Source of the DNA: Verrucomicrobiota bacterium
GTDB taxonomy: Bacteria > Verrucomicrobiota > Verrucomicrobiia > Limisphaerales > JADLHS01
Reading direction: 5' to 3'
Assembly: GCA_029573725.1 (NCBI GenBank)
Contig: JAKQDQ010000181.1
Coordinates: 62,001-126,000 of the forward strand
Length of the DNA: 64,000 nt
Position numbers and translations under genes: made by a program. Below are positions 8,086 to 35,215 of this stretch, one piece after another; position 1 is the stretch's first letter, and the number at the start of each line of letters is the position of its first letter. The notes under the pieces were generated by a model, which ran no database searches, was not told the DNA's origin, and saw nothing but the letters and a program-made list of their open reading frames with translations.

Positions 8086-9375
8086 ATGTCTAGTCTGCAC
8101 CCCGGATTTATGAACAGCGTTAAACAACTGAAAACCATCACCCGTCACACCCAGGCCAAGGTCGCGGCCGAATTGTCGCGCACCGGCGGTCTGCTCCGGC
8201 TGGCGCCCAACTGGGTGCCCCGCTCCTTTTTGCAGCCGGGCCTGCGGCTCAAACTGCATCCGGACGATACGTACGCCTATGGGGCCCATCGCGGTGGCAT
8301 TGACGAACGCTGGTTCGCCTCCACCACCGAAGCGGCGAACGCCGGGCGCGTGCCGGATGAGGGGCTGAGTTATTGCGTGGTCGGGCGTGAACGGTTCACC
8401 CTGCGCCAGGCGGTGGAAGACGCGGGCGCCACGCTGGTCGGCAAGGCGATCTGGAACAAGTACGGGCGTTGGCCGGTGTATTCCAAGTTCTTCGACAACA
8501 TGGGGCCCATTCCGCACCACATGCACCAGAATGCCGCCCAGGCGAAACGGGTGGGGCAGGAAGGCAAGCCGGAGAGCTATTATTTCCCGCCGCAGCACAA
8601 CAATGTGGGCAACCATTTCCCCTACACCTTCATGGGTTTGGAGCCGGGCACAACCAAGGCCCAGGTGCGGCAATGTCTCGAGAATTGGAACCGGGGGGAC
8701 AACGGCATCCTCGATTTGTCCAAGGCCTACCGGCTCAAGCCGGGCACCGGGTGGTTGATCGGGCCGTGCATCCTGCACGCGCCCGGTTCACTCTGCACCT
8801 ACGAACCGCAATGGGGCAGCGACGTGTTCGGGATGTACCAAAGCATGGTGGAAGGCCGCTACGTGCCGTGGGAGTTGCTGGTAAAAGACATGCCCCGGGA
8901 CAAACACCGTGACCTGGACTTCATCGTGGACCAGCTGGACTGGGAGGCGAACGTGGACCCGAACTTCAAGGACAATCACTACCTCGAACCGGTCCCCGTG
9001 GCCGACACGCGATCCGAGGGGTTCGTGGATCGGTGGATTGTTTACGGCCGGGTGAAGGGCCGGCAGTATTTCACAGCCAAGGAGCTGACGGTGGCGCCCG
9101 GCGTCCAATGCACCATCCGGGATCGCGGCGCCTACGGACTGATTTGCGTGCAGGGCAAGGGCACGATCAACGGTCAGCCGCTCAATTCACCCAAGCTGAT
9201 CCGCTTCCACGAGCTGACCGAAGACGAATATTTCTGCAGCGCCGACGGAGCGCGGGCCGGAATCACGTTTGAAAACACGAGCGGGACCGAGCCGTTGGTG
9301 ACGTTGCGTTACTTCGGTCCGGACGTGAATCCCGATGCGCCGGCGCTGGGCGCGTACCGGAAGAATAAATTCTGA
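8086..9375 (+). CDS. Cupin / class I mannose-6-phosphate isomerase-like protein
   Basis: This is a 429-residue soluble protein related to the double-cupin type I phosphomannose isomerase fold, so it is probably a metal-dependent sugar or sugar-phosphate isomerase or a related cupin. Metal-ligand candidates are the cluster I-P-H-H-M-H-Q-N (around 142-149), the later P-Q-H-N-N-V-G-N-H-F-P block and a C-terminal cupin half (about 325-420: APGVQCTIRDRG, YGLICVQGKGTING). The start is uncertain: a GTG at 8068 overlaps the stop of the preceding gene (GTGA), and ATGs exist at 8086 and 8110. I list 8086. Overlap or near-abutment with the dehydrogenase implies translational coupling and a shared sugar pathway. 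The exact reaction cannot be read from sequence. Confidence 0.75.
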   Translation: MSSLHPGFMNSVKQLKTITRHTQAKVAAELSRTGGLLRLAPNWVPRSFLQPGLRLKLHPDDTYAYGAHRGGIDERWFASTTEAANAGRVPDEGLSYCVVGRERFTLRQAVEDAGATLVGKAIWNKYGRWPVYSKFFDNMGPIPHHMHQNAAQAKRVGQEGKPESYYFPPQHNNVGNHFPYTFMGLEPGTTKAQVRQCLENWNRGDNGILDLSKAYRLKPGTGWLIGPCILHAPGSLCTYEPQWGSDVFGMYQSMVEGRYVPWELLVKDMPRDKHRDLDFIVDQLDWEANVDPNFKDNHYLEPVPVADTRSEGFVDRWIVYGRVKGRQYFTAKELTVAPGVQCTIRDRGAYGLICVQGKGTINGQPLNSPKLIRFHELTEDEYFCSADGARAGITFENTSGTEPLVTLRYFGPDVNPDAPALGAYRKNKF

Positions 9376-24767: not shown

Positions 24768-25358
24768 ATGCGCATCACAGGCGGACAAGCGGGCGGACGG
24801 ATTCTTAAAGTGCCCAAAGGCCTGGCGGTACGGCCGACGATTGAGCGCCTGAAGCAGGCGTTGTTCAACTCGCTGGGGGGGCGGGTGGTGGACGCGCGGG
24901 TGCTCGAGTTGTTTGCCGGCAGTGGCGCGTTGAGTTTGGAAAGTTTGAGCCGCGGGGCGCAGTCCGCCGTTTGCGTGGAATTATCGCCACGCCACGCCGC
25001 CTTCATTCGCTCCAATGTGACGGCCGCCGGCTTGCCGGTGGACCGGCTGATTGTGCGCACGCAGGATGTGTTTGCGGCGCTGCCCCAACTGCGCGCCGCG
25101 GGACAGCTCTTTGATTTGATCCTCGCCGATCCACCCTACGGCGAAAAAAATCGCGCGTGTCGTTCGACCTCATTCGCGCAGCGGCTGTTGGACGATCCGC
25201 ACCTGCCCGGGTTGCTGGCGCCCGGCGGGCGCTTGGCGCTGGGGTACGCCCGGCGGGATCGTTTGGAGACCCCGCCGGTCTGGCGGGAACACAAACAGCT
25301 CCGGCACGGCGACAGCGTGATCGGCTTTTGGAGCGTGGAAGCGCCGGAGGGCATTTAG
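24768..25358 (+). CDS. rsmD: 16S rRNA (guanine(966)-N2)-methyltransferase RsmD
   Basis: This 196-residue class I SAM methyltransferase modifies G966 of 16S rRNA during 30S assembly. Family hallmarks in order: MRITGGQAGGRIL at the start, R-P-T-I-E-R-L-K-Q-A-L-F-N-S-L (22-36), SAM motif ELFAGSGALSLE (47-58), and the catalytic D121-P-P-Y-G. The length is normal for RsmD (about 180-200). The stop overlaps the stop of the convergent hglS-family gene by four bases (25355-25358), so the two transcripts overlap tail to tail. Confidence 0.93.
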   Translation: MRITGGQAGGRILKVPKGLAVRPTIERLKQALFNSLGGRVVDARVLELFAGSGALSLESLSRGAQSAVCVELSPRHAAFIRSNVTAAGLPVDRLIVRTQDVFAALPQLRAAGQLFDLILADPPYGEKNRACRSTSFAQRLLDDPHLPGLLAPGGRLALGYARRDRLETPPVWREHKQLRHGDSVIGFWSVEAPEGI

Positions 25359-27040
25359 TCCGCGAGTGCGGCAGCGGCGGTTTCCAGCTGCGCCTTTTCG
25401 TCCGCGCGCAACTGCTCCAGCAACCCCAAATCCGCGTATGTTTGCAGCTGGGATTGGGCCTGCAACCCGGCATAGGTGGCGTTGGCGTCCACAATTTTGC
25501 GGTCCAAAATACCTTCCAGATCCGCCTGCGTGTAAACCGGACGTTCCGGGGCCGTGGCGCGCGTGCCATACTGACTGAGATTGGAAGCGAAAATGCCCGC
25601 CGCGCTGACCGGCAGGAAATCCTCGTACCGCAGCCCTTCGTAATCTACGCAGCCCCGCTCGATCAGCTCGTTGAGGTCGGTGGTGTGGAGTTGCCCTCGC
25701 TGGGCGAGGCCTTGCGGGGTCGCCTGGTAGCGCGCGTACACCAGTCCGGCGCGCACCAGTTCCCGCAAGGTTTTCGGAAACGGGGCAAACGCCCGGGCGC
25801 ACGCCGCCTCGTATGCCGCAAAATCGGTTTTGATCCCGTCCGGATTTTGCTCCCGCGCCGCGTCCGCCATGGCGAGACACTCGTCATAAAGCGCGCGTCC
25901 TTGGGGGGTGGTGGCATAGAAGCGCTGCTCGATCTCGCCAAAGCGCGCCGTATGCACGGCGTCCACCACCGAACCGTCGGGGTTGTGGAATTGCACGGGC
26001 TCCGTCAACGCCTTGTAGGCGTCCTGCCGCAACAACACCGGCGTATCCTGCGGCGGACCTTCCGTGAAATCCTTGAACCCCGAATGATTCAACGATTGCA
26101 AATCCAGATCGGCCTGCTGCAACCGCTGCAGCAGTTGCGCCGCGGTTTGCCGGGCGGCATCGGGCGGCACCACCCCCGCCTGAAACCCATCGAACGCGGA
26201 GCGCTCCATGTGTTTGAAATGTAAGCGCATCCAGTCGCGATCCGCACGCGCCACGGTGCGGGACAATGCCGTTTGGGCGCGCGTTTCGAACGTGGCGGCG
26301 CTCAATTCGCCCAGGCAGAACTTCATCGCCGCAGTGTAGAGATCCATGCAAAACGTGTTGGGCGTCAGATGATTCAGGTGGTGCGACTGAAAACAGGCGA
26401 TGTCCGCGGCAATTTTGAAGCCCGTGCGGCACAGCTCCTGGTACAAGGGATAATCCCGCGCGTGCCCGGTCCATTTGAAAATGCCGTTCACCCCCTCGGC
26501 AATCAACGCCTTCGCATCCTCCCAATCCAACCCCTCCTGCGCCTCGTTTTTGGCAACCAGCTGTCTGGCCCGCTCGGAAAAGACTTCGCGCGTGGCCAGC
26601 AGCGCTTCGATCCGGGCCCGGGTGGCGGGGTCGAAAAAATCCGTCAGCAGCAACGACGTAAAAATGCGGTGATCGGGATTGACTCGCGAACGGAACGCGG
26701 TGGCAATGATCGGCTGGCTTTTCACGCCGACGTTGGCCATGTCATAAAAATTATGCGGCTCCATGGCGAAGGCGGCAAAGAACTGGCAGACCAGGCGGTA
26801 TTCCCCGGGTTGGCCAATGCGAATGGCCCCGTGCCGTTCACGGCTGGACTCGTCCAGTTCCGCATCGGTCAGCGTGAAACCGCGATGTCGCTGTCCCAAC
26901 AGGTGGCACACCGCCCGGTTGCATTCGCGGTTCACCAGCAGGGATTTATCGTAGAGCGGCACTTCCGCTCCGAACATCTCGGACAACTCGGCAAACAGCC
27001 GGTGTTGCATTTCAATCTTGTCAGCAAAGGCGTCACTCAT
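25355..27040 (-). CDS. hglS: 2-oxoadipate dioxygenase/decarboxylase family (HglS/YdcJ, DUF1338) with an extra insert
   Basis: This 561-residue iron enzyme belongs to the DUF1338/YdcJ family; the characterised HglS converts 2-oxoadipate to D-2-hydroxyglutarate in lysine catabolism. Iron-ligand positions are visible: H70 in R-E-R-H-G-A-I-R, H224 in H-H-L-N-H-L-T-P-N, and Glu 369 in H-T-A-R-F-G-E-I-E-Q-R. Other family text includes EGPPQDTPVLLRQDAYKAL and YEDFLPVSAAGIFASNLSQ. It is about 100 residues longer than E. coli YdcJ. Most of the excess is a helical insert at about 231-315, between HLTPN and EGPP. ATG at 27040. It is isolated from other lysine-degradation genes in this window. Confidence 0.88.
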   Translation of the reverse strand: MSDAFADKIEMQHRLFAELSEMFGAEVPLYDKSLLVNRECNRAVCHLLGQRHRGFTLTDAELDESSRERHGAIRIGQPGEYRLVCQFFAAFAMEPHNFYDMANVGVKSQPIIATAFRSRVNPDHRIFTSLLLTDFFDPATRARIEALLATREVFSERARQLVAKNEAQEGLDWEDAKALIAEGVNGIFKWTGHARDYPLYQELCRTGFKIAADIACFQSHHLNHLTPNTFCMDLYTAAMKFCLGELSAATFETRAQTALSRTVARADRDWMRLHFKHMERSAFDGFQAGVVPPDAARQTAAQLLQRLQQADLDLQSLNHSGFKDFTEGPPQDTPVLLRQDAYKALTEPVQFHNPDGSVVDAVHTARFGEIEQRFYATTPQGRALYDECLAMADAAREQNPDGIKTDFAAYEAACARAFAPFPKTLRELVRAGLVYARYQATPQGLAQRGQLHTTDLNELIERGCVDYEGLRYEDFLPVSAAGIFASNLSQYGTRATAPERPVYTQADLEGILDRKIVDANATYAGLQAQSQLQTYADLGLLEQLRADEKAQLETAAAALAD

Positions 27041-27177: not shown

Positions 27178-28563
27178 GTGAGTTTCTTCCTGCACCGAAG
27201 CGAGCTGCGCGACCTTTACGACAAGGTCGCCGCCGGGGAACGCATTTCCGAAGCCGACGCGCTGCGGTTGTTTGAATCCAAAGACCTCAACGCGCTGGGC
27301 GCGATTGCCGACTTGGCGCGGCAGCGGAAGGTTGGTGACCGCGCCAGCTACATCGTCAATCGCTACCTCAACTACTCGAACTACTGCATCTTGAGCTGCC
27401 AGTTCTGCGCGTTCCAGCGCAAGAAACGGGACAAGGATGGGTTCGAATTGAGCATCCCGCAGATGGTCGAGAAGGCGCGCGAGGCGTTGCGGCTCGGGAT
27501 CACGGAACTGCACATCGTCGGCGGGCTGCATCCCTCGCTGCCGTTCAGCTACTACACGGACATGCTCAAGGCATTGAGCGCGCTGAACGATGAGCTGGTG
27601 GGGCGCGCTTCCCCGCGAGCCGATGGGAAAGCCGAAGGCGGCGCGTCAGGAGCCTCGCCCCGCCGCCTGCAGCTCAAATGCTTCACCGCGAATGAAATCC
27701 TGCACCTCGCCTGGCTCGGCAAAAGATCCACAAAAGAGACCCTGATGGAATTGCGGGAAGCCGGGCTGGATTCGCTGACCGGCGGCGGCGCGGAAATTTT
27801 TCGCCAGGAAGTCCGCAGCGCCATCGCCAAGGGCAAGGAATCCGCTGCGGAATGGCTCGAAGTCCACCGCACCTGGCATCAACTCGGCGGACGCAGCACC
27901 TGCACGATGCTTTATGGGCATGTGGAATCGCTGGCGGATCGTGTGGATCACCTGCGGCAACTGCGTGAACTCCAGGATGAGGCGCGCGCGAATGGGTTCG
28001 GTCATATCCAAGGACCCCTCACCCGACCTCCGGCCACCCTCTCCCCATCCAATGGGGAGAGGGACGGGGTGAGGGGCTCTTCAGAAGCTAATTCTGCAAA
28101 ACAATCTCAAGCTCGCGCTCCTTATGGCGGCTTTGTCGGCTTCGTGCCGCTGGCGTATATGCCACAGGACAACGACATTCCCGTCGAACACGCACCGACG
28201 GCGTTCGATTCCCTGCGCACCATCGCCGTGAGCCGCATCTACCTCGACAACTTCGATCATATCACCGCGTATTGGGTGGGCCTGGGGATGAAGCTGGCGC
28301 AAGTGGCGTTGAGCTACGGCGCGGACGACCTGCACGGAACGATCATCGAGGAGCACATCTTCCACATGGCCGGCGCGACCTCGCCGCAATTGCAGACCGA
28401 AGCGGACATGCTCAAAGCCATCCGCGAAGCCGGTCGCACACCGGTGCAACGGAATACGTTTTACGAGCCGATCCGCGTTCTGGAACGCGCGTCTGTTGCC
28501 GATGAGGCCGAACCGCCGTCAGGCAAATCGAAAGTGTTGGCAGACAATCTGGCGACGGCGTGA
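27178..28563 (+). CDS. mqnE: Aminofutalosine synthase MqnE (radical SAM), with two in-frame inserts
   Basis: This 461-residue radical SAM enzyme of the futalosine menaquinone pathway joins the enolpyruvyl compound made by MqnA to SAM-derived adenosine. The cluster-binding motif is C70-I-L-S-C74-Q-F-C77-A-F, preceded by RYLNYSNYC. Other family text includes ELHIVGGLHPSLPFSYYTDM, LTGGGAEIF, STCTMLYGHVE, VPLAYMPQDNDI and SYGADDLHGTIIEEHIFHMAG. Two regions absent from ordinary MqnE interrupt conserved blocks: residues about 141-161 (DNA element 27600-27661) and about 280-318 (DNA element 28015-28076 plus flank). The reading frame survives both. Start is the GTG at 27178. Menaquinone use fits an organism with multihaem respiratory cytochromes. 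Confidence 0.93.
   Translation: MSFFLHRSELRDLYDKVAAGERISEADALRLFESKDLNALGAIADLARQRKVGDRASYIVNRYLNYSNYCILSCQFCAFQRKKRDKDGFELSIPQMVEKAREALRLGITELHIVGGLHPSLPFSYYTDMLKALSALNDELVGRASPRADGKAEGGASGASPRRLQLKCFTANEILHLAWLGKRSTKETLMELREAGLDSLTGGGAEIFRQEVRSAIAKGKESAAEWLEVHRTWHQLGGRSTCTMLYGHVESLADRVDHLRQLRELQDEARANGFGHIQGPLTRPPATLSPSNGERDGVRGSSEANSAKQSQARAPYGGFVGFVPLAYMPQDNDIPVEHAPTAFDSLRTIAVSRIYLDNFDHITAYWVGLGMKLAQVALSYGADDLHGTIIEEHIFHMAGATSPQLQTEADMLKAIREAGRTPVQRNTFYEPIRVLERASVADEAEPPSGKSKVLADNLATA
27600..27661 (+). repeat. 62-base GC-rich element with inverted ends inside mqnE
   Basis: The element begins GGGGCG (27600-27605) and ends CGCCCC (27656-27661), perfect terminal inverted repeats. The next bases of each arm (CGCTTCC versus AGGCTCC on the opposite strand) are still similar. 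Translated in the mqnE frame it gives the Gly/Ala/Arg-rich G-R-A-S-P-R-A-D-G-K-A-E-G-G-A-S-G-A-S-P, which interrupts the normal MLKAL...LKCFTA connection. It looks like a small palindromic (REP/MITE-like) insertion tolerated in a surface loop. Confidence 0.6.
28015..28076 (+). repeat. 62-base REP-like palindrome inside mqnE
   Basis: The outer arms CCCCTCACCC (28015-28024) and GGGTGAGGGG (28067-28076) are a perfect 10-base inverted repeat. The inner arms CCCTCTCCCCAT (28037-28048) and ATGGGGAGAGGG (28052-28063) are a perfect 12-base inverted repeat with a 3-base loop. CCCTCTCCCC/GGGGAGAGGG palindromes of this kind are widely dispersed extragenic elements in bacteria; here the element is translated as part of MqnE (LTRPPATLSPSNGERDGVRG). 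It could fold as a strong mRNA hairpin. Confidence 0.8.
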
Positions 28564-32119: not shown

Positions 32120-35050
32120 TTACCCGAGCAGGCGTTTCACCTGCGCCAAAGCCTCGTCCAGCCTGGTCGCATCCCGGCCCCCGCCGCGGGCGTGATCCGG
32201 CTTGCCGCCGCCTTTGCCTCCCACGATGGGGGTAATCTGCTGGATGATTTTGCCCGCTTGAATTTTCGCGGTGAATTCCGGGGCCACCGTCGCCACCAGG
32301 GAAACGGCGTTTTCGCCGTAGCCGCCCAGCACCACCACGCCTTTGAACCGGCCTTTGAGTGCATCGGCGATCGCCTGCAGAAAATCGCCCTCCGCCGCGC
32401 CCAGGTTGTGGGCAATGAACGGGGTGTTGTTCACGGTCTGGGCGCGCCCCAGCAACTCGCTGGCCGCATTGGAAGCGTTGCGCTGCAGCGCCAGCTTGAC
32501 CTCCTTTTCCAGCTGCTTCTGCTGAGCCAGCAAGGCCTCGATTTTTTTTTCCAGCTCGTGAACCGGCGCATTCACCCGGCCGGCCAGGTGCTTGATGAGC
32601 GCCACTTCCCCGGTGGCTCGCTGGTAGGCTTCCAATCCGGCCACGGCTTCGATGCGGCGCACCCCGGCGGCGATGGCATTCTCGCCCGTGATGCGGAACA
32701 AACCGATCTCGCCGGTGGCGCGCGTGTGCGTGCCGCCGCAAAGTTCCATCGAGTAGCCATCCAACTGCTGCGGCCGGCCACCGATCTGGACCACGCGGAC
32801 GCTCTCTCCGTATTTTTCGCCAAACAAATGCATCACGTCCGGGCGGGATTTCACTGCCGCAAAGGGCACTTCCGCCCAGCTTACTCCCGCATTTTCGAGG
32901 ATGCGTTCGTTGACAATTTTTTCGATGTCGGCCACCTGCGCCGGCGTCAGCGGCGCGCTGTTGAAATCGAAGGTCAGCTTGTCCGGTCCGACAAACGAAC
33001 CCTTCTGCGTCGCGTCGCGACTCACCACCTCGTGCAGCGCCCAGTGCAGCAAATGCGTGACGGTGTGATGGCGCTGAATCGCGGCGCGGCGGGGTTTTTC
33101 AACGGACAATGTGAGTTGTGAGCCGACGGCGGGGGCATCGCCACCACCCTCGACGAAGTGCAGCCAGGTGTTGCCGGATTTTTGCGTGTTGGCGATGCGC
33201 CAGAGCCGGCCGTCGCCGACCAGCTCGCCGGTGTCGCCGACCTGACCGCCCATCTCGGCGTAGCACGCGCTGGTGTCGAGGATCACGGCGGTCTTGTCCT
33301 TGAGCGAAACGACTTCCAGCACTTTCGCGTCCACCGACAGGTGGTCGTAGCCGACAAACTTCGTGGGCGTGGTGGTTTCGATTTGCGAGAGCGAGATGAC
33401 CTCCTTCTTCTGCGCGGCGCGGGCGCGGGCGCGCTGCTCCTCCATCAACTTCTCAAAGCCTTCCTTGTCCACGGTCAAACCGCGTTCGCGCGCCATCAAC
33501 TCGGTGAGGTCGAGCGGGAAGCCGTAGGTGTCGTAGAGTTCAAAGGCAAACTTTGCGTCCAGAGGCGGGTACTCAATTCCCAAATCAGCAAGTTTTGATT
33601 GAGCGTCGGAATTTAGGTCGAGCGTCCTCGTCGCACCCACTTCAGAACTTGCGAACTCTTTGTAAACGGTTCGGAAGCCTTGCCCGGCTGTTTTCATCAG
33701 CACCAAATCGGAAACCAAGTTCCACCAATGCTTGTCGAAGAGTTCAATTCCCCGGTCCAGCGTCTTGTTAAACGCGTCCTCCTCATTCCGGATCACGTCC
33801 TGAATCTGGTGCTGCCGGGTGCGGATTTCAGGAAACACGTCGCCCATCGTGTCGGCGAGCACGTCCACGAGTTTGTAGAAAAACGGTTCTTTGAAGCCGA
33901 GCGTCCGACCGTAGCGCACGGCGCGGCGCAGGATGCGGCGCAGGACGTAATTGCGATCCGTGTTGCCGGGTTGGATGCCGTCGGCGATGGCAAAACCCAA
34001 GGTGCGGATGTGGTCGGCAATAACGCGGAACGCGACGTCAATTTTTTCCTGCTCCGTATCGCCGGGGCTGTCGGGTTTCGGGAGCGTGCTGCCGTATTTC
34101 TTGCCGCATAATCGCTCCAGTTCATCAAAAATGGGTCGGAAGATGTCGGTTTCGTAGTTGGAGATTTTGGCGCCGGCAAAATCCGTCAGTCCTTTTGTGC
34201 CCTGGAGGATGCTGGTGACGCGCTCAAAACCCATGCCGGTGTCCACATGCTTCGCCGGCAGCGGGGTGAAGGTGCCGTCGGGGTTGGCGTTGAATTGAAT
34301 GAAGACCAGGTTCCAAATCTCCATGCACTCGGCGCGGCCCTGGTTGACGAGCGCGCCTTTTGTGTCGCCAGCCGGCGTGAGGTCCATGTGCAGTTCGGAG
34401 CACGGGCCGCACGGGCCGGTCTCGCCCATCATCCAGAAGTTGTCTTTTTTGTTGCCGGGGATGATGTGCGTTTTTGGGTCCAGCCCGGCCGCAATAAACT
34501 GGCGGGCCCAATACAGGGCGGCTTCCTGATCGGAAACTTCAAAGGGTGACGCGTTGGGATCCGGGGCGATGAACGTGCGCGAGGTCAGCGTCAGTGCGAG
34601 CACCTGTTCCAGTTCGATGGCCCATTGCTTTTCCCAACCCGGGGTGCCGAGGTACGGACAGAAGACCGTCGCATACAGGCGCGCCGGGGGAAATTTCCAT
34701 TTGCCGACCACGAGTTCCCACGCCCACGGGATGGCTTCCCGCTTGAAGTAATCGCCAAAGCTCCAGTTGCCGAGCATCTCAAAAAATGTGTGGTGATAGG
34801 TATCCAGCCCGACATCTTCGAGGTCATTGTGCTTGCCACCAGCGCGGATGCACTTCTGGGTGTCCGCCGCGCGGCCCGGCGTGTAGGGGCAGGGAGTTTG
34901 CCCCAGGAAGATGGGCACGAACTGGTTCATCCCGGCATTGGTGAACAGCAGGTTCGGGCTGTCGGGCAGCAGGCTCGAGGAGGGGACTATGGTGTGTTGT
35001 TTCGACTGGAAAAAGTCGAGGAACGACTGGCGGATTTGTGACGAGGTCAT
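32120..35050 (-). CDS. alaS: Alanine-tRNA ligase, with an atypical AT-richer insert
   Basis: This 976-residue cytoplasmic alanyl-tRNA synthetase starts at the ATG at 35050 (M-T-S-S-Q-I-R-Q-S-F-L-D-F-F). Class II catalytic text: PSSSLLPDSPNLLFTNAGMN, KCIRAGGKHNDLEDVG, HHTFFEMLGNWSFGDYFK, ETGPCGPCSELH. The editing domain has HTVTHLLHWAL and the Zn-site S-M-E-L-C-G-G-T-H. The C-terminal C-Ala/DHHA1 part ends VGGKGGGKPDHARGGG. Between R-G-I-E-L-F-D-K and F-A-F-E-L-Y-D-T-Y-G-F-P-L-D lie about 57 residues where E. coli AlaRS has about a dozen (bases about 33565-33735). This stretch is visibly AT-richer than the rest of the gene. Frame and motifs are intact, so the enzyme should be active. Confidence 0.95.
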   Translation of the reverse strand: MTSSQIRQSFLDFFQSKQHTIVPSSSLLPDSPNLLFTNAGMNQFVPIFLGQTPCPYTPGRAADTQKCIRAGGKHNDLEDVGLDTYHHTFFEMLGNWSFGDYFKREAIPWAWELVVGKWKFPPARLYATVFCPYLGTPGWEKQWAIELEQVLALTLTSRTFIAPDPNASPFEVSDQEAALYWARQFIAAGLDPKTHIIPGNKKDNFWMMGETGPCGPCSELHMDLTPAGDTKGALVNQGRAECMEIWNLVFIQFNANPDGTFTPLPAKHVDTGMGFERVTSILQGTKGLTDFAGAKISNYETDIFRPIFDELERLCGKKYGSTLPKPDSPGDTEQEKIDVAFRVIADHIRTLGFAIADGIQPGNTDRNYVLRRILRRAVRYGRTLGFKEPFFYKLVDVLADTMGDVFPEIRTRQHQIQDVIRNEEDAFNKTLDRGIELFDKHWWNLVSDLVLMKTAGQGFRTVYKEFASSEVGATRTLDLNSDAQSKLADLGIEYPPLDAKFAFELYDTYGFPLDLTELMARERGLTVDKEGFEKLMEEQRARARAAQKKEVISLSQIETTTPTKFVGYDHLSVDAKVLEVVSLKDKTAVILDTSACYAEMGGQVGDTGELVGDGRLWRIANTQKSGNTWLHFVEGGGDAPAVGSQLTLSVEKPRRAAIQRHHTVTHLLHWALHEVVSRDATQKGSFVGPDKLTFDFNSAPLTPAQVADIEKIVNERILENAGVSWAEVPFAAVKSRPDVMHLFGEKYGESVRVVQIGGRPQQLDGYSMELCGGTHTRATGEIGLFRITGENAIAAGVRRIEAVAGLEAYQRATGEVALIKHLAGRVNAPVHELEKKIEALLAQQKQLEKEVKLALQRNASNAASELLGRAQTVNNTPFIAHNLGAAEGDFLQAIADALKGRFKGVVVLGGYGENAVSLVATVAPEFTAKIQAGKIIQQITPIVGGKGGGKPDHARGGGRDATRLDEALAQVKRLLG

Positions 35051-35215
35051 GTAAAGCGTCGCTTGACGATTCGTAAACGGAAACTGGCAGCTCCCGGCCA
35101 TTGACGGAAGCTCCGATCTGGGCGGTGAATCCGCGGCCCAAATTCGGGTGGGGACTTTAGCAAAAGTCGGCGCGGCGAGGCGAGTTGAAGTTTTGGTCCT
35201 CGAATCGGGCGCGGT

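Follow-up and report, generated by a model that had tools for sequence, protein, structure and literature searches.

The mqnE gene and its two extended loops

The window analyzed here, i.e., the whole stretch of 64,000 nt taken from a 4.28 Mb assembly (G000), carries at 27178-28563 (+) the gene mqnE for aminofutalosine synthase, a radical SAM enzyme of vitamin K synthesis with 461 aa and a GTG start. The gene is read as a single frame without a stop over two palindromic elements, and this frame is still open upstream of the GTG. The NCBIfam model TIGR03700 matches the product with an E-value of 5e-129 (430.2 bits, against a curated cut-off of 434.55) in three stretches that have the inserts between them, PF04055 and PF19288 are matched as well, the radical SAM cysteines (CxxxCxxC, here CILSCQFC) are intact, and the closest solved structure is that of MqnE 6xi9. 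MqnE has a single match in this genome, three further matches being weaker, and homologues of MqnA/MqnD are present. Outside the loops, mqnE is under purifying selection, as are functional genes (dN/dS 0.04-0.13, with about 0.1 for the window gene versus its relatives). On the other strand, at 25355-27040 (-), lies a frame for an HGLS / 2-oxoadipate dioxygenase, which has 561 aa, matches its 451-position model in two stretches and may itself hold an insertion.

Both elements sit in loops that are extended with respect to relatives, in which the corresponding segments without inserts have 22 aa (loop 1) and 20 aa (loop 2). Loop 1 (27589-27663, +) has 25 codons versus one in relatives (net gain of 72 nt, 24 aa), and loop 2 (27982-28128, +) has 49 codons versus two in most relatives (net gain of 141 nt, 47 aa), the loop-junction sequence lying around GRASPRADGK and LTRPPATLSPSNGER. 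Judged by their lengths against these gains, the elements make up the greater part of loop 1 and less than half of loop 2. An AlphaFold model of the window MqnE, of mediocre quality overall (mean pLDDT 61), places both loops between a helix and a strand, with pLDDT under 50 (loop 1 follows helix 123-142 and precedes strand 165-167; loop 2 follows helix 252-271 and precedes strand 318-324). In 6xi9 the insertion points fall at uninterrupted chain, at junctions 172/173 and 277/278. The helix-to-strand loops of a radical SAM barrel are on the face opposite the active site, and loops facing away from the active site would explain why inserts may be tolerated.

Element 2 is a 62 nt palindrome at 28015-28076 (+), running from CCCCTCACCC (28015) to GGGTGAGGGG (28076), with an inner 12-base stem (28037-28048 / 28052-28063) and additional outer pairs, with which it spans about 28011-28080. 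The genome of the window has at least 11 further copies of nearly full length, with identities of 84-94%, plus many partial ones, and some of these copies are in frame in conserved proteins identified by Pfam, i.e., GyrB (L009), TrpE (L010), MutY (L026) and a protein kinase that has two copies (L004, L020). The GTAG foot is absent from this element, and no RAYT/Y1 transposase was found between two of its copies: the motif is present in four scanned Y1-transposase loci, never on both sides, and on C127 a copy lying some 170 bp away from an IS200-like gene is likewise on one side only. Given the missing foot and the lack of a RAYT flanked by element 2, we restrict the RAYT link to the GTAG/GGAG families described below. 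An Rfam search with element 2 gave a chance-level microRNA match only. The IS200-like transposase genes themselves (L102:880-2300, L101:1180-2200) are located amid arrays of short hairpins, of the type CCCCGTCAGGGGCGACATC on C127 and of the types CCGTCCCGGAGGGACGG and CCAGCCACGAAGTGGCTGG on C73.

Among the genes read, loop 2 is extended only in the window (G000) and in G001, G007, G010 and G025. In G001, G007 and G025 it is made up of hairpins with a GGAG foot (GGAGTTCCGGCTTCAGCCGG; GGAGCGCGGCGTTCACGCCGC; inverted GGAGCGCGGGCTTCAGCCCGC), a remnant of which (AAGCTCGCGCTCCT) is left in the loop 2 of the window, with element 2 placed within the older loop, and in G010 it holds a palindrome related to element 2. 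Judging from these remnants, loop 2 was probably already repeat-derived when element 2 arrived. Palindromes are also found in corresponding N-domain loops of the TrpE/PabB-type enzymes of G000 (L010:283-1860, -) and G007 (L153:1196-2824, +), and they differ, being of the element-2 family in the former and of the GTAGCCGCCGACG family in the latter.

Element 1 is better drawn, on the basis of family features, as a degenerate REPIN-like inverted pair of 68 nt at 27597-27664 (+), with the ends GGTGGGGCG...CGCCCCGCC and the inverted pair GGTGGGGCGCGCTTCCCCGCGAGCC ... GGCGCGTCAGGAGCCTCGCCCCGCC; the bounds given in a first-pass annotation of this DNA, GGGGCG (27600)...CGCCCC (27661), enclose 62 nt inside it. 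It has a GTGG foot at its left end, and its arms pair imperfectly. The GGTGGGGCGAGGCTCCTGACG arm together with the GTGG foot is REP-like, and GTGG is the foot of most GTAG-20 elements of Opitutus terrae, i.e., the main foot variant there (PMC3733652). About three related copies exist in the genome of the window, all weak: one in mfd (C87:239746-239815, L033; 73% over 69 nt), one in a class III aminotransferase gene (C87:309226-309278, L036; 69%) and a single REP of 26 nt (C71:656327-656351, L032).

On re-reading the sequence, both elements are where the first-pass annotation had placed them, each with 62 nt by its bounds and in frame without a stop, and the inverted ends GGGGCG/CGCCCC and the inner 12-base stem of element 2 are as it described them. 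Its central idea, that palindromes which are normally extragenic are here read in frame inside an enzyme, is upheld. The two elements fare differently in other respects. Repetition within the genome, which its reading requires of both, applies to element 2, whereas element 1 is nearly single-copy with weak copies, and the palindromic nature ascribed to both is strong in element 2 (fold versus shuffles: z -4.5, 0/200) but that of element 1 alone is no better than shuffles (z -1.9, 11/200).

Loop 1 in relatives of the order Limisphaerales

Named relatives among the matches are almost all Verrucomicrobia, mostly of subdivision 3 / Limisphaerales, and we aligned 108 Limisphaerales mqnE genes, from draft genomes that are mostly MAGs. 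Loop 1 is empty (exactly 22 aa) in 75 of these, which bears out the earlier expectation of empty sites in relatives, and filled (34-74 aa) in the other 33, with a constant insertion point between ...ALD/N and RLQLKCFT. Altogether 29 of the 33 inserts could be typed, giving 14 subtypes, which for the most part are REPINs with a GTAG or GGAG foot (the GGAG variant is defined from the sequences here, not from papers), while the four untyped ones appear decayed. A G-[TGC]-[AG]-G foot combined with a family-specific stem is present in 24/33. Many of the inserts are near-perfect palindromes of roughly 50-140 nt with two inverted hairpin arms and GTAG/GGAG feet (e.g., GGTAGGGCGCGTCACTCCGTGCGCGCC... 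in G010 and GGGAGCGCCGGCATCCTGCCGGCG... in G014), and those of four relatives fold with z-scores of -8.5 to -13. The insert family is dispersed within its own genome in 10 of the 12 genomes tested; for G007 and G056, no other copies of their own mqnE insert are among the matches listed.

On an mqnE tree built without the loop columns, and poorly supported at its deep nodes, the presence or absence of an insert requires 12 changes, with at least four of them forced by supported branches. The subtype requires 23 changes versus a shuffle mean of 23.4, i.e., no phylogenetic signal is visible in the subtype, though with one to three members per type this is a weak test. The "two independent events" originally proposed for the gene are thus too few, as loop 1 alone requires about 23 changes of element type on the tree and other enzymes are hit too. 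The left junction, GATGAAAT followed by GG, is common to three loop-1 families, and at two loci (L179 and L162) a partial REP adjoins a full REP in loop 1. These shared junctions and partial REPs suggest replacement at a pre-existing element. No target duplication and no empty/filled pair within one species were seen among these genes, and for this reason each jump is one that we infer.

In several relatives, part of the 3' end of mqnE or thrS occurs again at about 0.7-5 kb downstream from the complete gene, with 61-91% identity to the query proteins (L364:1205-1555, L365:7343-7765, L366:503-1132, L367:4506-5134, L368:579-1124, L373:485-601). Further in-frame palindromes occur in relatives in LeuRS, a Val/Ile-type synthetase, NAD-DNA ligase, DAP epimerase, a GMC oxidoreductase, RACo, and in PSCyt2/PSD1 and methylase genes (L125, L135, L145, L119, L147, L152, L157, L108, L112).

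RAYT transposases inside essential enzymes

RAYT-model matches were obtained in all 24 genomes searched, in 18 of them above the curated cut-off; the genome of the window has two such matches at 74-75 bits, below the cut-off of 80. In this genome, a RAYT on C33 (L408:1157-1998) is located between GTAG REPINs, which on both sides are of the type found in mqnE of G002 and G056, and a RAYT on C71 (L409:1713-2615) has a different long inverted repeat on its flanks (AGCGTCTGGACTGCGGTGGCTTTAGCACCGCT).

In other genomes, RAYTs are present in frame inside host enzymes. ThrS of G039 and G021 carries one at the same site, as a 578-nt unit bounded by inverted REPs of the GGGGAGCGCACGCG type, a family also present in mqnE of G007 and G039. 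AlaS carries one in G013, G016, G025, G033 and G039, in two different loops, and the REP family of the G013 insertion is that of the mqnE genes at L062 and L162. DnaE carries one in G010 and, in part, in G013, and the RAYT of G010 is bounded by GTAGTGGCAC, a family also seen in mqnE of G011. Wherever the bounding inverted REPs were compared (ThrS, DnaE, and AlaS of G013), they belong to families seen in loop 1 of mqnE, and as the same families bound in-frame RAYTs elsewhere, the mqnE inserts look like non-autonomous derivatives of such RAYT elements. The loci are L269:266-2752 (-), L270:854-3316 (+), L268:2-2428 (-), L273:494-4042 (-), L410:913-4263 (+), L411:457-3855 (+), L412:742-4503 (+), L271:2-4579 (+) and L274:2-1669 (+).

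The RAYT-bearing ThrS and AlaS are the only matches found for these enzymes in their genomes, of which G021, G033 and G016 are at least 96% complete. The insertions in ThrS and DnaE and three of those in AlaS have the HUH and YI..NP tyrosine motifs, with a variant of one or both in L411 and L412, and none of the proteins with an in-frame RAYT gave a match to a splicing domain. The alaS of the window itself (32120-35101, -) has no RAYT, and none was found in either loop of mqnE among the longest frames of the matches listed, mqnE being present in 277 of 320 genomes of the order. Taken together, the foot, the hairpin arms, the inverted pairs and the RAYTs with the same repeats point to REP/REPIN-RAYT elements as the source of most loop-1 inserts.

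A separate observation concerns thrS, which in G009 (L371, G009:C153) is split, with the N- and C-terminal halves in separate frames about 3.3 kb apart, the break being at the loop that carries the RAYT in other genomes. G006, G056, G014, G053 and G008 have a C-terminal ThrS frame without the N-terminal half in the stretch read (the loci other than L371 are L368, L369, L370, L372 and L374). Rfam gave no group II intron match in the five such loci searched; near thrS of G006 it gave two Acido-Lenti-1 RNA matches above the gathering score (L368:7659-7703, -, and 8867-8911, +).

Origin of the inserts and comparison with known systems

We consider it likely, with a probability of about 0.8, that mobile palindromic repeats have inserted in frame in two permissive loops of MqnE and that loop 1 has been refilled by different REPIN families. 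Palindromic repeats of mobile origin would have landed in frame in the two helix-to-strand loops, where they would be translated as short hydrophilic peptides. The insert of loop 1 would be a REPIN, i.e., a pair of REPs in inverted orientation whose foot is of the GTAG type (GTGG in the window), and REPINs would be the non-autonomous form of an element that, when complete, includes a RAYT (a single-strand HUH transposase). Loop 1 would then be re-used, with a REPIN arriving, decaying or being exchanged and another family following, both because insertions there may cost the enzyme little and because the resident REP or its edge could serve as a target for cleavage or exchange. Loop 2, on the other hand, would be a REP cluster of greater age, with element 2, which belongs to a second palindrome family, as a later arrival.

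The same pattern might be thought to stem from one ancient palindrome insertion that was inherited by all and then diverged, a common origin of the kind proposed for some RPEs of Rickettsia (PMC3767692). Several filled genes do share their flanking residues (NDE/NDEM), a loop length of 41 aa recurs in several of them, some decayed, and the filled sites are grouped on the tree (12 changes versus 28.5 in shuffles). However, the insert families are unrelated and most have other copies in their own genome, which largely refutes a common origin, many stems are near perfect and without decay, and filled and empty genes are interleaved within well-supported groups, so that we regard it as very unlikely. 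We give still less credence to the loops being selected host features (e.g., for regulation or partner binding) for which palindromes were mere raw material: loop sequence and length are unconstrained among relatives, in which the loops are often absent, and although several REP families keep almost the same reading frame from one gene to another, no more than 15 and 6 of the 33 inserts are free of stops in the other two sense frames, and such stops explain the preference in part. The least credible explanation is that whole mqnE alleles, rather than elements, were moved by recombination or horizontal transfer. It would suit a loop 2 that is common to family f1 and to G025 of another family, but it does not sit well with genus g47, where empty and differently filled sites occur together, nor with the dispersal of the insert family in the same genome (10/12).

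Building on the insertion of mobile repeats and the refilling of loop 1, a broader proposal, to which we would give somewhat less than an even chance, is that RAYT transposons of Limisphaerales live as protein insertions in single-copy essential enzymes, with REPIN derivatives circulating through permissive loops. If this were the case, AlaS (five genomes), ThrS (two) and DnaE (one or two) would hold the complete arrangement of REP, RAYT and inverted REP, the transposase would be produced as one domain within an essential enzyme, deletion at such sites would be lethal through loss of the host gene, and newly arriving REPINs would land at resident copies. With RAYTs in frame in essential enzymes, there may be a niche in which a transposon can be expressed and is hard to lose, and the inserts provide protein engineers with a natural set of loop insertions.

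The foot, hairpin arms and inverted pairs are traits in common with the GTAG REP/REPIN-RAYT systems, or REPtrons (Di Nocera et al. 2013, PMC3733652; the TnpAREP study of 2021, PMC8266576; Bertels and Rainey 2011, PMC3116915), which also resemble the Limisphaerales elements in having dispersed copies and RAYTs bounded by repeats. Intragenic, in-frame REPs encoding 20-30 aa have been reported before from many species, most often in the verrucomicrobium Opitutus terrae, and recB, in two Xanthomonas species, was the only gene in which different REPs occupied about the same site, the sites in other genes being different (PMC3733652). In comparison with that survey, a single loop has here taken up at least 13 subtypes over the order as a whole, and complete RAYT genes are present in frame inside essential enzymes. 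The repeats of TIRYTs/TIRtrons carry the motif GGGGWSAS (PMC3733652), which GGGGTGAG in element 2 fits; a degenerate 8-mer is a lead only and, unlike in TIRtrons, no transposase was found flanked by element 2 on both sides. Inteins are also in-frame mobile DNA in conserved enzymes, some with a nuclease-type domain, but the RAYT-protein inserts are without a matched splicing domain and are placed in loops, not in active sites.

The first-pass annotation had likened the elements to the palindromic elements of Rickettsia, a fair analogy, even if the REP features point to the REP/REPIN-RAYT group instead. According to the summary in PMC3767692, the RPEs described by Ogata and co-workers and the Wolbachia palindromic elements are in frame in exposed places of conserved proteins, different RPE groups lie near the same site in orthologues, and RPE-4, -6 and -7 could descend from one insertion. 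The palindromes of the window are similar in lying in frame in a conserved protein, here with its gene under purifying selection. The difference is that the loop-1 inserts come from unrelated families, most of which have copies dispersed through the genome that holds them, a distinction drawn from the description of RPEs. For different RPEs at one site in Rickettsia, the choice between a hotspot and common descent was left undecided (PMC3767692); here, unrelated families that are mostly dispersed in their own genomes make repeated occupation of one site the better reading. We found no description of RAYTs in frame in AlaS, ThrS or DnaE in a literature search that missed most subscription papers, nor, in the literature searched, of a single loop with such a number of unrelated families among the members of one order. 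In-frame REPs as such are known from Rickettsia and O. terrae, and what appears to be new in Limisphaerales is that different families have occupied one loop in succession and that transposases lie in frame inside enzymes.
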